Shown here: positions 30,559 to 34,599 of the stretch, piece by piece
How the letters are laid out: every line of letters starts with the position of its first letter
Position numbering within the stretch: position 1 is the stretch's first letter
Source: an uncultured Bacteroidota bacterium
Lineage (GTDB): Bacteria; Bacteroidota; Bacteroidia; Bacteroidales; F082
NCBI GenBank assembly: GCA_903957365.1
Contig: CAJBPB010000124.1
Coordinates: 1 to 64,000, forward strand
Direction: 5' to 3'
Length of the DNA stretch: 64,000 bases
The notes under the pieces: generated by a model
What the model saw: only the letters and a program-made list of their open reading frames with translations
Database searches by the model: none
What the model was told of the DNA's origin: nothing
Position numbers and translations under genes: made by a program

Positions 30559-30912
30559 ATGATGTGTTTTAAACAAAAAAGGGGAAAAGCATTCTGGATC
30601 AAAAGAGCCATTTTTATTCCCATTGCCATAGTTGCCGGAGTATTTGTATTCGGATCGGTAGTAATGCTGTTATGGAACGGAATTCTTCCGGCTGTGCTGG
30701 GTGTAAAAGTAATTACCTTCTGGCAGGCTCTCGGAATACTTGTATTGTCGAAAATACTGTTTGGAGGATTCAAGGGTGGACATGGTTATCCGAATGCGCA
30801 TCACGGGCATCCGTGGATGAACAAATGGAAGGATATGCCCACAGAAGAACGTGAAAAAATGAGAAGCGAATGGATGCAGCGATGCAGCCATCAACCGAAA
30901 CAGGAGGAGTAA
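30559..30912 (+). CDS. Small His-rich membrane protein paired with the sigma factor
   Basis: Protein of 117 residues with no assigned function. Seen: a basic N-terminus, a transmembrane helix at about 16-38, a second hydrophobic segment at about 52-68 containing ITFWQALGILVLSKILFGGF, a Gly/His stretch (GGHGYPNAHHGHPW, 73-86), and a helical tail MPTEEREKMRSEWMQRC (93-109) that recalls the EERE-type helices of Spy/CpxP-like proteins. It lies 14 bp after the sigma factor gene. Similar short WQALG...LFGG proteins follow sigma factor genes in other bacteria as far as I recall. A role as membrane-bound regulator or metal/envelope sensor is inference. Confidence 0.75.
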   Translation: MMCFKQKRGKAFWIKRAIFIPIAIVAGVFVFGSVVMLLWNGILPAVLGVKVITFWQALGILVLSKILFGGFKGGHGYPNAHHGHPWMNKWKDMPTEEREKMRSEWMQRCSHQPKQEE

Positions 30913-30925
30913 ACATCCAATCATA

Positions 30926-30958
30926 CAAAGCAGAAGCCCGCGGCCAACGGCTGCGGGC
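30926..30958 (+). terminator. Hairpin between convergent genes; copy 1 of a repeated element
   Basis: GCCCGC and GCGGGC pair around an inner GCC-AAC-GGC hairpin. It may end transcription of the sigma operon, although the T run is weak. A near copy lies at 33461-33492 (28 of 32 positions identical). Confidence 0.55.
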
Positions 30959-30971
30959 CCTGTTTAACAGA

Positions 30972-31589
30972 TTATTGTTTATATCCTATAACGTAGTAAC
31001 ATTTCTTCTCTTTTGTATGCTCTATTGTTTCAATGGTTTTAAATCCTGTTTTTTCCATTTCTTTCGCTACATCACCAATACTGTGCCGGTAAAATATTGT
31101 TTCACCTTCTGATTGCTTTATATCTTTGAAACACTCAGCATCTGCCATAAAAATGATGACTTTGCCATTTTGTTTCAGCATTGATAAAATTTTTTTCAAC
31201 CGGATTTGAATTTCGCTCCAGAAATATATGACATTCAAAAAGTAAATACAATGAAAACTATCATTTTCAAAACGATAATGATCAAAGTCAGCACAAAGTA
31301 GTATTATTTTACCACTGTTTACATTTTCATGGTTTAGCTTAAGTGCTTTCGAATACATTAACCGGGAAAAATCAATTCCATGAAAAGTACAATCATACTT
31401 TTTTGAGTAATCATAAATACCCTTACCTAATCCATATCCAATTTCGAGCACAATGTCGTGCTTATTAAGCTTAAGCAATGATTCCATTTCATCATATTCT
31501 ATTTGATTTTTTTTAAGAAACCTGATGATATAATGACCAAATAAACCACTTGGTTTTCGGAAATTTTTGGCTATGAGTCTTTTGAACAT
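30972..31589 (-). CDS. Class I SAM-dependent methyltransferase
   Basis: Methyltransferase of 205 residues, substrate unknown. Seen: RKPSGLFGHYI near the N-terminus, SAM-binding motif I VLEIGYGLGKGIYDY (about 46-60), GIDFSRLMYSKAL, LLCADFDHYRFENDSFHCIY with motif II/III-like features, and NGKVIIFM. The LEIGYGLGKG and RKPSG pattern is of the type seen in small ubiE/phospholipid-like methyltransferases of Bacteroidota, but this is not enough to name it. Strongly AT-rich compared with the sigma operon next to it. It lies in the repeat-bounded segment at 30.9-33.5 kb. Confidence 0.8.
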   Translation of the reverse strand: MFKRLIAKNFRKPSGLFGHYIIRFLKKNQIEYDEMESLLKLNKHDIVLEIGYGLGKGIYDYSKKYDCTFHGIDFSRLMYSKALKLNHENVNSGKIILLCADFDHYRFENDSFHCIYFLNVIYFWSEIQIRLKKILSMLKQNGKVIIFMADAECFKDIKQSEGETIFYRHSIGDVAKEMEKTGFKTIETIEHTKEKKCYYVIGYKQ

Positions 31590-31920
31590 AGGTTGACTTG
31601 AATTAACTAGTACGTATGCTTAATTACATCTAACTGCAATCCATCTAATAACCCCCATTAATAACCATTTTGATGAAAAATCAGTCATAAAGGTATGCAA
31701 TAGTAAAGTTTGGAGGATAGTAATTTTTAAACAAAATACATTTGTCCAACAAATTCATCATTTTTTTAGGTGGCTCAGTTTACTCCGGAATAATGAGCAA
31801 TGAATTATAAATCAGTTATGGTTTTTGAATACATTTTCACTCCGGCCAGGAGACCGAAATGGTTGTTCGACGTAGTCTGGAGACTACGCCGAGCGGGTTA
31901 TAAAAGTCTGAAATTATAGT
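31590..31920. other. Intergenic region with one copy of the 95-bp repeat
   Basis: About 330 bp between two leftward genes. It contains the first copy of the palindrome-cored repeat (31803-31897), which ends 23 bp before the OmpA-like stop. The remainder (31590-31800) is AT-rich with nothing recognised. Confidence 0.5.
31803..31897 (+). repeat. 95-bp repeat with palindromic core, copy 1
   Basis: Matches 33203-33297 at 88 of 95 positions, same orientation and exactly 1400 bp apart. The core GTAGTCTGGAGACTAC (31872-31887) is a perfect 7-bp inverted repeat around GG. Confidence 0.85.
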
Positions 31921-32739
31921 TTATGGTTTCTTTACAATTTCAACACGTCTGTTTTTTGCTTTGCCTTCATCAGTCCTGTTATCTGCAACGGGTTTTTCCT
32001 GACCCCAGCCAATTGATGACATTCTTGGTTTGTCGATACCTTTTGCAATAAGAACATCCATGACTGATTTGGCACGGTCATTACTAAGTTTTTTGTTACT
32101 GGTTGCATCACCAATATTGTCGGTATGACCTTCAATGGATATTATAATGTTTGCATCCATTTCCAACATTTCAAAGATCTGGTCAATTATTGGAAGTGAT
32201 TCTTTTTGTATTACAGATTTTCCTGTTTCGAAAAGTATATCCAGAGCAATAAATCCATCTTTGTTTAACGCGTCAAGTATTGCCGATGCTTGAATATCTT
32301 GTTGCATTTCTTCAATTTCCATGATGATAAGAGTATAGGATTCAGCAACATCTGAAGCAGATTCTATGCCAATCCAGATAGATTTACCTCCCGATTTACA
32401 AAATAGAGTTGCATATTGTGAACCCAAATAGATTCTTTTCACACTATATTTTGCAAGAGCATTTTCGTAGTTCTTTATTACTTGAAAAAAGGAATATGCC
32501 TGATCTCCACCTTCTGTATTAAAATCATATGTTACCATGGTTTTGTAACCTTCAATAGTTTCTGAATTGCCGTCAATCATAACAAGATCAGTTACACCAA
32601 AGTTTTTAGCACATTCTCGTATTATATAATTTGGCATTCTGTTAAATAGCGGATGATCTTTGCATCCTTCTGCATCTTGCGCAAACAGTGATATAATACT
32701 GAAAAGCATCAATGTGACCGAAATAGTAATTTTTTTCAT
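31921..32739 (-). CDS. OmpA-family protein
   Basis: Periplasmic/outer-membrane protein that should bind peptidoglycan through its C-terminal domain. Seen in 272 residues: signal peptide 1-20 (FSIISLFAQ), an N-terminal domain of about 140 residues containing MVTYDFNTEGG and a YSVKRIYLGSQYA segment, and a C-terminal OmpA domain from about 160 with IALDILFETGKSVI, the peptidoglycan-binding EGHTDNIGDATSN, LSNDRAKSVMDVLIAKGI and KAKNRRVEIV. The barrel domain of classical OmpA is absent, as in many stand-alone OmpA-like Bacteroidota proteins. It lies inside the repeat-bounded segment. Confidence 0.88.
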   Translation of the reverse strand: MKKITISVTLMLFSIISLFAQDAEGCKDHPLFNRMPNYIIRECAKNFGVTDLVMIDGNSETIEGYKTMVTYDFNTEGGDQAYSFFQVIKNYENALAKYSVKRIYLGSQYATLFCKSGGKSIWIGIESASDVAESYTLIIMEIEEMQQDIQASAILDALNKDGFIALDILFETGKSVIQKESLPIIDQIFEMLEMDANIIISIEGHTDNIGDATSNKKLSNDRAKSVMDVLIAKGIDKPRMSSIGWGQEKPVADNRTDEGKAKNRRVEIVKKP

Positions 32740-33100
32740 TTTCTTTGGATTTAAGTTTTATTACTGTGTGTTTTGTTACAAAAACGGGATAAATAGTGAT
32801 AAATATAGGATACGGTTGGCCACTTGCCATTATGGGATTTAAAATGTGTAATGCTTTTTAAAATACCAAAACAACCCCCAACCCTGTCAAATTCAATAAT
32901 TCTAAAGTATCTTGCAGTAAATATTCTGCCTTTTTCAATGAACGGGGTTGGTTATTACGATTGTTTCGTTGTTTGAGTAAAACAAATGTAAATCAGATAT
33001 TTCACAAAAACAAGATATCAGCATGATTTATTTTATCAAATCATTTCGCAATCAATCGCTTACTTAATCAACTCCGTCTTGAAGTCGGACAGCTGTGATG

Positions 33101-33195
33101 AATTATTTATCAGGTTTGGTTTATGAAAACGGTTTTACTTATGCCAGGAGACCGAAATGGTTATTCGATGTAGTCTGGAGACTACGCCGAGCAGT
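33101..33195 (+). repeat. 95-bp repeat with palindromic core, copy 2
   Basis: Same layout as the copy at 31803: AT-rich left half, then CCAGGAGACCGAAATGG and the perfect core GTAGTCTGGAGACTAC at 33170-33185. The left half is more diverged than in other copies. Confidence 0.8.
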
Positions 33196-33202
33196 GGCAA
33201 TA

Positions 33203-33297
33203 AATTATAAATCAGTTATGGTTTTTGAATACATTTTCACTCCGGGCAGGAGACCTATTTGGCTATTCGACGTAATCTGGAGACTACGCCGAGCGGG
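33203..33297 (+). repeat. 95-bp repeat with palindromic core, copy 3
   Basis: Closest relative of the copy at 31803 (7 differences in 95). One arm of the core is mutated (GTAATCTGGAGACTAC, 33272-33287). Confidence 0.85.
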
Positions 33298-33305
33298 GGT
33301 ATACT

Positions 33306-33328
33306 GGTACCGATTGCAAATCGGCACC
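33306..33328 (+). repeat. Palindrome between repeat copies
   Basis: GGT-a-CCGATT / AATCGG-c-ACC around a GCA loop: a 9-bp interrupted stem inserted between the third and fourth repeat copies. Confidence 0.6.
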
Positions 33329-33344
33329 AGCGTGGGGGCATTGG

Positions 33345-33440
33345 ATTATGAATCAGTTATAGTTTATGAAAACGTTTTCACTCCTGTCTGGAGACCGATA
33401 TGGTTGTTCGACATAGTCTGGAGACTACGCCAAGCGAGGG
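33345..33440 (+). repeat. 95-bp repeat with palindromic core, copy 4
   Basis: ATTATGAATCAGTTAT left end, TCTGGAGACCGATATGG, then the core ATAGTCTGGAGACTAC at 33413-33428 with one end mismatch. Same orientation as the other three. Confidence 0.8.
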
Positions 33441-33460
33441 GGAATAAACTCCCTTGCGGT

Positions 33461-33493
33461 CAAAGCAAAAGCCCGTGGCCATTGGCTGCGGGT
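33461..33493 (+). repeat. Hairpin element, copy 2
   Basis: CAAAGCAAAAGCCCGTGGCC followed by the complementary GGCTGCGGGTTT. Near copy of 30926-30957, same orientation, 28 of 32 identical. It resembles a terminator but no gene ends just upstream. Confidence 0.6.
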
Positions 33494-33582: not shown

Positions 33583-34355
33583 GTTATGCACAGCTATTAA
33601 TTTGCGGAAATCAATTTTGATTTGATCGTTTTCCATTTCTTAGTACTAATGTTCAGTTTGTATTTAGTTTCTGTCAATTGCAGGGCATTTGCATGGACTA
33701 AAGTTGTAAGGGTATGATTTGTCTTATTGATTTGAATAGGAAAAAAAATCATTTTCTCACTTAGGAATTTATCAAGAATGAATTCGTCGTTTGTATCTTG
33801 AATGTAAAATCGATACTCAGGTCCACCATTCCCCCCAGAATTATTTTTAATGGCAAAATCATCTTTATTGTCGAAATTAAAATCTGCTACAATAATGTCA
33901 CCATAATCATTATCTACAGCGACAGAATCTCTGTTAACATTAGTGGTATAAGATCTGACGTTGCCGCAATCGCCGAATGCGTCATTGAAAAAAGATACAG
34001 AACTATATTGAATCGCTTGAATCTGTTTCGAAGACGATTTGTCAAATACAGCAACTTTGATCACACATGAATCCATTTGAGCGTTTCTATTGATTCTACT
34101 AATTTCAATTTTAAAGTCAAATGTTTTTGAAATGTCTATGTGATTACAGATTTGTCCCAAAGTCATTAAACTTATGCAAGATAAAAAAACTATAATTATG
34201 ATCCTCATTGTTGGTCTGTCTAGTTTATATTTCTGACTAACGTTTTTATAACTATTTGATAATATGTATTTTAAAATTTATTTTTAATTGATAATTTCTT
34301 CTAAACGTTTGCTTTGGAAGTCAATGTTTCCGGTATATGAAGGATTGTGCATAAC
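33583..34355. repeat. Cassette-like unit bounded by a 10-bp inverted repeat
   Basis: GTTATGCACA at 33583-33592 and its exact reverse complement TGTGCATAAC at 34346-34355 enclose a single small leftward gene. The left end sits 5 bp beyond the stop codon. A chance 10-bp match in this much AT-rich DNA is possible, so the boundaries are tentative. Confidence 0.35.
33597..34208 (-). CDS. Small secreted protein, XAC2610/FG-GAP-like
   Basis: Hypothetical secreted protein of 203 residues. Seen: signal peptide about 1-19 (FLSCISLMTLGQ), a beta-rich body, and DIIVADFNFDNKDDFAIKNNSGGNGG (two overlapping parts around 105-130), an Asp-rich loop of the calcium-binding FG-GAP/VCBS kind that is typical of XAC2610-like proteins. 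Function unknown. It is AT-rich, has no neighbour in an operon and is enclosed by GTTATGCACA inverted repeats, so it may be a mobile single-gene unit. Confidence 0.7.
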   Translation of the reverse strand: MRIIIIVFLSCISLMTLGQICNHIDISKTFDFKIEISRINRNAQMDSCVIKVAVFDKSSSKQIQAIQYSSVSFFNDAFGDCGNVRSYTTNVNRDSVAVDNDYGDIIVADFNFDNKDDFAIKNNSGGNGGPEYRFYIQDTNDEFILDKFLSEKMIFFPIQINKTNHTLTTLVHANALQLTETKYKLNISTKKWKTIKSKLISAN

Positions 34356-34599
34356 GAATCGCTAATAGCCTTTTAGCAGTTATTTGTGATTATAATGATA
34401 CGCTAAAAGCAAACAAACCGGGTAATAAAACAATCAAAATCAATACTTCTGTTTCGCTTTCTCATGCAAAAGACAGATTTGTTTATAATCAATGTTTAGT
34501 TTTTGAGTTTGTTTTGTTGTTACATCCAAACAAATGTAAATCAGTTATTTCACAAATCCAAATGATTGGGTACAAACATTTCAACTGGTCAAATCGCTT

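Follow-up and report, generated by a model that had tools for sequence, protein, structure and literature searches.

IS200/IS605 elements carry at their ends hairpins in one orientation, which are recognised by a Y1 HUH enzyme. Among the RAYT proteins, those of subclass 2.6 (Bertels group 5) occur mostly in Bacteroidetes, and the main text of PMC6006769 describes their flanking repeats as 'atypical secondary structures' without GT[AG]G. Table 1 of the same paper gives for this subclass the motifs NH[LIV]H, WQ and YIH[QN]NP, a length near 179, a HUH-to-tyrosine distance near 82 and an SS tail. Subclass 2.4 RAYTs are described there with 'double foot' long REPs of the form GTAG...CTAC and with insertions in the RAYT genes (main text of PMC6006769). 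A typical REP family exceeds 100 copies according to the abstract of PMC2817692, an abundance that is not reached by the repeats reported here.

The DNA analysed in this work, hereafter the window, is a stretch of 64,000 nucleotides from an uncultured Bacteroidota bacterium (GCA_903957365.1, contig CAJBPB010000124.1). The genome of the window is designated G000 and its congeners G001, G002 and G003, while C numbers denote contigs and L numbers fetched loci.

Repeat copies in the window

The window contains four copies of one repeat of about 100 bp, all on the same strand and each 101 nt long. An earlier note on this DNA had reported four direct copies of 95 bp; these are real and share one strand, and their extents were revised to 101 nt. 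Copy 1 (31797-31897, plus strand) comprises a hairpin H1 at 31843-31856, a hairpin H2 at 31872-31887, which is a perfect GTAGTCTGGAGACTAC, and the tail GCCGAGCGGG, and it scores 81.6 bits with the covariance model. In copy 2 (33095-33195, plus strand, 67.7 bits) the 5' arm of H1 (33141-33154) is degraded and H2 (33170-33185) is perfect. H2 is at 33272-33287 in copy 3 (33197-33297, plus strand, H1 at 33243-33256, 69.1 bits) and at 33413-33428 in copy 4 (33338-33438, plus strand, H1 at 33384-33397, 69.8 bits), with one broken pair each, in copy 3 because of GTAATC... and in copy 4, where it is the outer pair, because of ATAGTC.... The perfect 7-bp palindromic core that had been ascribed to all four copies is therefore restricted to copies 1 and 2, and CAGGAGACC, formerly listed as an element of its own, is present as the 3' part of a second hairpin, namely H1.

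Copies 1 and 3 form the closest pair with 7 differences in 95 positions, exactly as first noted, and the other pairs differ at 13 to 21. A search of the window with the core GTAGTCTGGAGACTACGCC at up to three mismatches returned five matches, one of which is copy 1 read on the opposite strand. Since 100 dinucleotide shuffles of the window gave a mean of 0.00 matches, the core is not expected by chance. As judged by ORFs, the copies are intergenic, lying between the ORFs at 30972-31589, 31921-32739 and 33597-34208, and the location is thus extragenic.

A second, different palindrome, GGTACCGATTGCAAATCGGCACC, is located between copies 3 and 4 at 33306-33328, with no strand assigned. The same palindrome occurs after a repeat copy in G003:C30 and after a decayed one in G000:C323, and palindromes of similar appearance, as judged by eye, accompany RAYT genes in G001:C153 and G003:C9.

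Anatomy of the two-hairpin unit

The unit is composed of H1 (CGGTC, loop AGGA, GACCG), a spacer, H2 (GTAGTC, loop TGGA, GACTAC) and then GCCGAGCGGG. In the alignment of 15 copies from G000 and the three congeners, H1 and H2 have the same orientation. The spacer between them was measured in the 22 best rows, of which 16 have 15 nt and 6 have 14 nt. An NGGA loop is present in H1 of 22 and in H2 of 27 of the 36 distinct rows. The window copies have a damaged H1, whereas several copies from other places retain it intact, and the H2 foot GTAG is found in copies 1 and 2 and altered in copies 3 and 4. By eye, the copies diverge 3' of GCCGAGCGGG; the sequence to the left of H1 appears locus-specific, being common to the copies within one locus, and is also common to some dispersed copies, for example those of G002:C151 and the ABC-transporter loci.

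Both helices covary. Seven of the 11 base pairs were changed on both sides, with 33 such cells compared to 8.5 in shuffles (38 covariance model matches, 36 distinct), figures that lean towards the model because the alignment was fitted to it, and seven pairs were also reached in 6 of 500 shuffles. Sliding the partners abolished the pairing, and a compensated pair (GCAGTC...GACTGC) is seen in G003:C30. When folded as single-stranded DNA, two well-kept copies gave strong structures (z -4.43 and -3.58), while the window copies 1 to 4 folded weakly to moderately (z -2.23, -0.79, -0.34 and -1.50, respectively).

Distribution of the repeat

The absence of any further copies, which the earlier note had named as an outcome speaking against a mobile repeat, was not observed; copies beyond the four are dispersed in the window's own genome and in its relatives. 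Covariance model R1 detected at least eight copies in G000 on three contigs (four in the window, three on C191 and a weak one on C87) and at least 4, 12 and 5 copies in G001, G002 and G003, respectively, all of which are lower bounds, as 150 of 469-695 first-look candidates were scored per genome. This short palindromic repeat is therefore present in multiple dispersed copies in G000 and its congeners. One exception to the extragenic location is the copy of G002:C151, which lies inside a 145-aa ORF. Among six further genomes, the model found at least three copies in G027, at least four in G039 and at least one each in G004 and G010, and it gave no match in G014 and G017 among the candidates scored.

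With at most one mismatch, the core was found in 8 of 100 relatives, own genome counted; in G058 the matching palindrome is perfect with a TGCA or TGTA loop. A stricter two-part pattern occurred in 3 of 173 family members, again counting the own genome, and the exact core in 1 of 395 class members, namely the own genome only. The distribution of the family is patchy. A scan of genome_contigs for the core yielded at least 118 stretches, and among the 118 listed, 40 belong to one MAG titled Spirochaetales (Gx481_bin132) and 23 to one Prevotellaceae MAG (Gx485_bin125). The JAISAF and JAISDK contigs (L093-L210) are those of these two core-rich MAGs, which may represent either high-copy expansions or, for the Spirochaetales-titled one, a mis-assigned bin. 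With regard to viral spread, a 24-mer was without exact match in viral_contigs.

RAYT genes flanked by the unit

A motif search for RAYT genes covered 80 of the 118 listed stretches. In these, a RAYT-like gene was located at most about 200 bp from a core in L093, L097, L111, L162, L167 and L168, and L157 proved to be the G003 locus again. According to the covariance model, the unit is present on both sides of the gene in the same orientation in L168 (E 8.5e-9 and 4.7e-6) and, weakly, in L111 (E 1.3e-4 and 5.2e-3), on both sides in opposite orientation in L162 and L097 (left unit of L097, E 4.4e-3), and on one side in L093 and L167. Two units in the same orientation also bracket the RAYT genes of G027 (L034) and G039 (L035), the latter of which partly reads N. 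In L097, from Chitinophagaceae LY-5, the RAYT gene is directly followed, at positions 977-2087, by nine units in tandem, which measure about 132 bp and show the two-hairpin match.

The identity of the proteins was assessed in a set of 18 aligned RAYTs, from which L016 was left out owing to wrong coordinates. All 18 match NCBIfam NF047646 at E <= 0.001, and a search of their profile against solved structures returned one relative, 4er8, a TnpArep. The proteins are 175-198 long with a HUH-to-tyrosine distance of 78-86, and they carry NHxH (16 of 18), YIH[QN]NP (11 of 18), WQ (5 of 18) and SSA (all 18). Of the seven RAYTs located near this core, six cluster in the tree, drawn open, with three RAYTs of the palindrome CGTAGCG-GGA-CGCTACG (support 84/92); H2 of the unit shares with this palindrome its GTAG...CTAC foot and its GGA loop. 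The repeat-flanked RAYT of L167 falls outside the main tree group.

RAYT genes and remnants in the genus

An IS200/RAYT gene flanked by the same ends, which the earlier note had proposed to look for, thus exists in other genomes, and none is directly flanked in G000. The latter genome has four intact RAYTs (C191, C319, C371 and C51), none of them directly flanked by this repeat, together with a fragment at C157 and three shorter Y1 genes of IS200-like length. Likewise, the search of G000-G003, whose assemblies are incomplete MAG-like drafts, revealed no intact RAYT bordered by the unit. The statement that there is no transposase in the window holds for Y1/RAYT proteins, the class searched: no such protein was detected on the window's contig at the Pfam threshold, and when 23 RAYTs were compared with the window by tblastn, none matched significantly (best E 0.067). 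Since the search of G000 turned up no RAYT with this repeat directly beside it, it is doubtful that a dedicated enzyme now acts in trans, as previously proposed.

Remnants of RAYT genes are seen near copies in the congeners. At G002:C51, the locus orthologous to that of window copy 1, a 43-residue RAYT remnant (profile E 8e-7 in G002) lies 790 nt from the single copy; among 23 RAYTs compared, it is closest to that of L168, with 51% identity. In G002:C58 and G003:C91, H1 of a repeat copy is located 26 and 25 nt, respectively, from a divergent RAYT-start remnant, which spans about 14 codons in G002:C58 and is frame-shifted in G003:C91. This layout matches that of the intact L034 gene, where 32 nt separate the start codon from H1, and by eye a decayed H2-like stretch is visible past each start remnant. 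Taken alone, the G002:C58 start peptide is weak (tblastn E 0.08-0.57), with 5 of 20000 residue shuffles scoring equally against L034, and it resembles the starts of repeat-flanked and GCGTAGCG-type RAYTs alike (best scores 45, 44 and 42).

History of the loci

At the locus that holds four copies in the window, G002 and G003 each carry a single one. The interval from copy 1 to the AhpC/TSA peroxiredoxin gene is made up of different DNA in the window genome, G002 and G003, and in the window it includes an OmpA-family gene. Given the single copy of G002 and G003, the simplest reading is that the extra window copies would have arisen by local duplication in a variable region. A 66-nt direct repeat of 79% identity lies on either side of copies 2-4 (32948-33013 and 34496-34561) and is perhaps a trace of duplication or insertion at the locus. 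Another direct repeat, of 56 nt and 75% identity (30902-30957 and 33437-33492), contains a G+C-rich inverted repeat with a terminator-like look by eye.

At the ABC-transporter locus, three copies are present in G000, one each in G002 and G003, and no unit in G001 (no covariance model match in L282). The model likewise found no unit beside the TetR-like gene of G000:C193 (L285). The flanks of these two candidate empty sites are too diverged to place an exact junction. In the window and in G001:C6, G002:C58, G002:C109 and G003:C69, copies in the same orientation are paired at distances of 1.3-2.8 kb, an arrangement that was considered as a possible composite transposon. By eye, the genes between the paired copies look different in the window, G002:C58 and G002:C109; the G001:C6 and G003:C69 loci are orthologous. 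In G001:C6 (L230 5890-6194), a repeat copy directly follows a short and apparently truncated ORF with a match to DUF4372, which we take to be the N-terminal domain of an IS4-like transposase.

Origin of the repeats

We consider it probable, with good confidence, that the repeats represent a REP family of low copy number, orphaned from a Bacteroidota RAYT (TnpA-REP) system and locally duplicated in the window. A REP/RAYT origin is supported by features read directly from the sequence, namely the dispersed family, its covarying hairpins, the RAYT genes bracketed by the unit in other genomes, and the RAYT remnants beside congener copies; the weak single-strand folding of the window copies speaks for decay. 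By analogy with E. coli TnpA-REP and IS200/IS605, the RAYT would bind the H1/H2 hairpins on single-stranded DNA, would cut beside them via its HUH/tyrosine site and would join the cut product elsewhere. The genus would once have had an intact RAYT of the L168/L034 type, which would since have decayed and left the copies behind as low-copy orphans. Several observations argue against this origin: the low number of about 4-12 copies per genome, the limitation of the exact core to its own genome (1 of 395 class members), the position of the repeat-flanked L167 RAYT outside the main tree group, the fact that no unit-flanked intact RAYT was found in the draft assemblies of G000-G003, and the weakness of the start remnants by sequence alone. 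In addition, the unit orientation around the RAYTs is mixed, being the same in L034, L035, L168 and, weakly, L111, and opposite in L162 and L097, which reduces our confidence a little.

The copies would not be orphans if they were served by a resident RAYT, that of G000:C191 (ortholog G003:C49). In G000 this gene does have three copies upstream of it, at 1.0-1.4 kb, and its ortholog in G003 has one at 0.7 kb upstream. About 100 nt upstream of the G003 gene, an H1-like half unit, which matches the ABC-locus copy at 84.6% over 52 nt, is fused to the gene's own palindrome; this speaks for a link with that RAYT. The copies near C191, however, follow the ABC-transporter gene, as they also do in G002, in which no C191-type RAYT was found, and the palindrome that immediately borders the gene is a different one (GCGCGC...GCGCGTGC). 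It is shared with the C371 RAYT, which has no copy of the two-hairpin unit in its fetched surroundings, and the C191 and C371 RAYTs form a separate, long-branched tree group. We thus regard service by the C191 RAYT as unlikely. Alternatively, the copies could act as RNA, as structured 3' ends, terminators or small RNAs of neighbour genes kept for that role. The intergenic location of the window copies, the covarying helices and the copy found after the ABC-transporter gene at the same place in G000, G002 and G003 would fit such a function, but the copy is absent from this locus in G001, that of G002:C151 lies inside an ORF, the two-hairpin unit flanks RAYT genes, and a RAYT that recognises single-stranded DNA would leave an identical pattern of covariation. 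Rfam gave no match at the copies; at E <= 1 its one match was a chance-level CRISPR repeat away from them (E 0.99, 19.7 bits, cut-off 50). The small-RNA alternative of the earlier note, being without Rfam support, is kept as a weaker rival and, like other RNA roles, appears very improbable.

The three clustered copies (33095-33438) might instead be repeats within a coding sequence, as a 140-aa ORF runs through all of them and their spacings, 102 and 141, are multiples of 3. Copy 1 is out of step with this frame (spacing 1298), the ORF has no Pfam match, and of the 22 best rows from the genus, in which one locus appears twice, 10 keep the frame open across H1 and H2 and 12 have a stop or a shift. 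With the frame broken in 12 of 22 rows and no Pfam match, a coding origin was rejected as extremely improbable.

Within the preferred REP/RAYT origin, we tentatively raise one less likely possibility, based on the analogy with IS200/IS605: the unit of about 60-100 nt may be a minimal transposon, with H1 as left and H2 as right end, that a RAYT would move as a whole. If this were true, REPs would spread via an IS200-like end pair, not via inverted REPIN hairpins, and would outlive their enzyme. The family beside Bacteroidota RAYTs now has a defined anatomy, a covariance model and a set of RAYTs bracketed by the unit. It is a probable fossil record of REP copies that outlived their enzyme, and it could serve to test the way in which REPs spread and their persistence in the absence of a RAYT.

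Comparison with known systems

As in subclass 2.6, taking the latter from the main text of PMC6006769, the family is mostly found in Bacteroidetes, the RAYT gene is bordered by repeats that also occur at other places in the genome, and the RAYT proteins are similar in length, HUH-to-tyrosine distance, tyrosine motif and SS tail. The agreement of the proteins with the features given for the subclass extends to most of these but not to all. Unlike in that description, WQ is present in only 5 of 18 proteins and H2 begins with GTAG (PMC6006769, main text). Because the flanking core begins with GTAG, the window family was compared with subclass 2.6 and not filed there. Like the subclass 2.4 double foot, the palindrome has GTAG and CTAC at its opposite ends, but H2 comprises 16 nt and is paired with a second hairpin, H1, in which it departs from the double foot as the main text of PMC6006769 presents it. 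The GTAG tetranucleotide at the foot of a REP hairpin is thus found in H2, where it can pair with CTAC, whereas the classic REP GTAG is unpaired.

Like the REPINs and BIMEs of Pseudomonas and E. coli, the repeats are short extragenic palindromes tied to a RAYT gene and arranged in pairs or clusters (PMC6006769). They differ from these in number, about 4-12 copies having been found per genome as opposed to hundreds, and in that H1 and H2, as well as the clustered window copies, have the same orientation and are not inverted; the two inverted REPs forming one long hairpin that make a REPIN are thus not seen. The hairpins in one orientation are reminiscent of IS200/IS605 ends and of internally deleted derivatives, from which the unit differs in its size of about 57-100 nt without a transposase inside and with no known excision. 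A literature search for the exact palindrome TAGTCTGGAGACTA found no paper in the collection searched. Set against the main-text descriptions, which separate it from the subclass 2.4 and 2.6 repeats, the repeat resembles a short double foot plus a second hairpin, and the same-orientation two-hairpin unit may be a variant. Most likely, the REP family described here is a known type of element in an unusual two-hairpin form.
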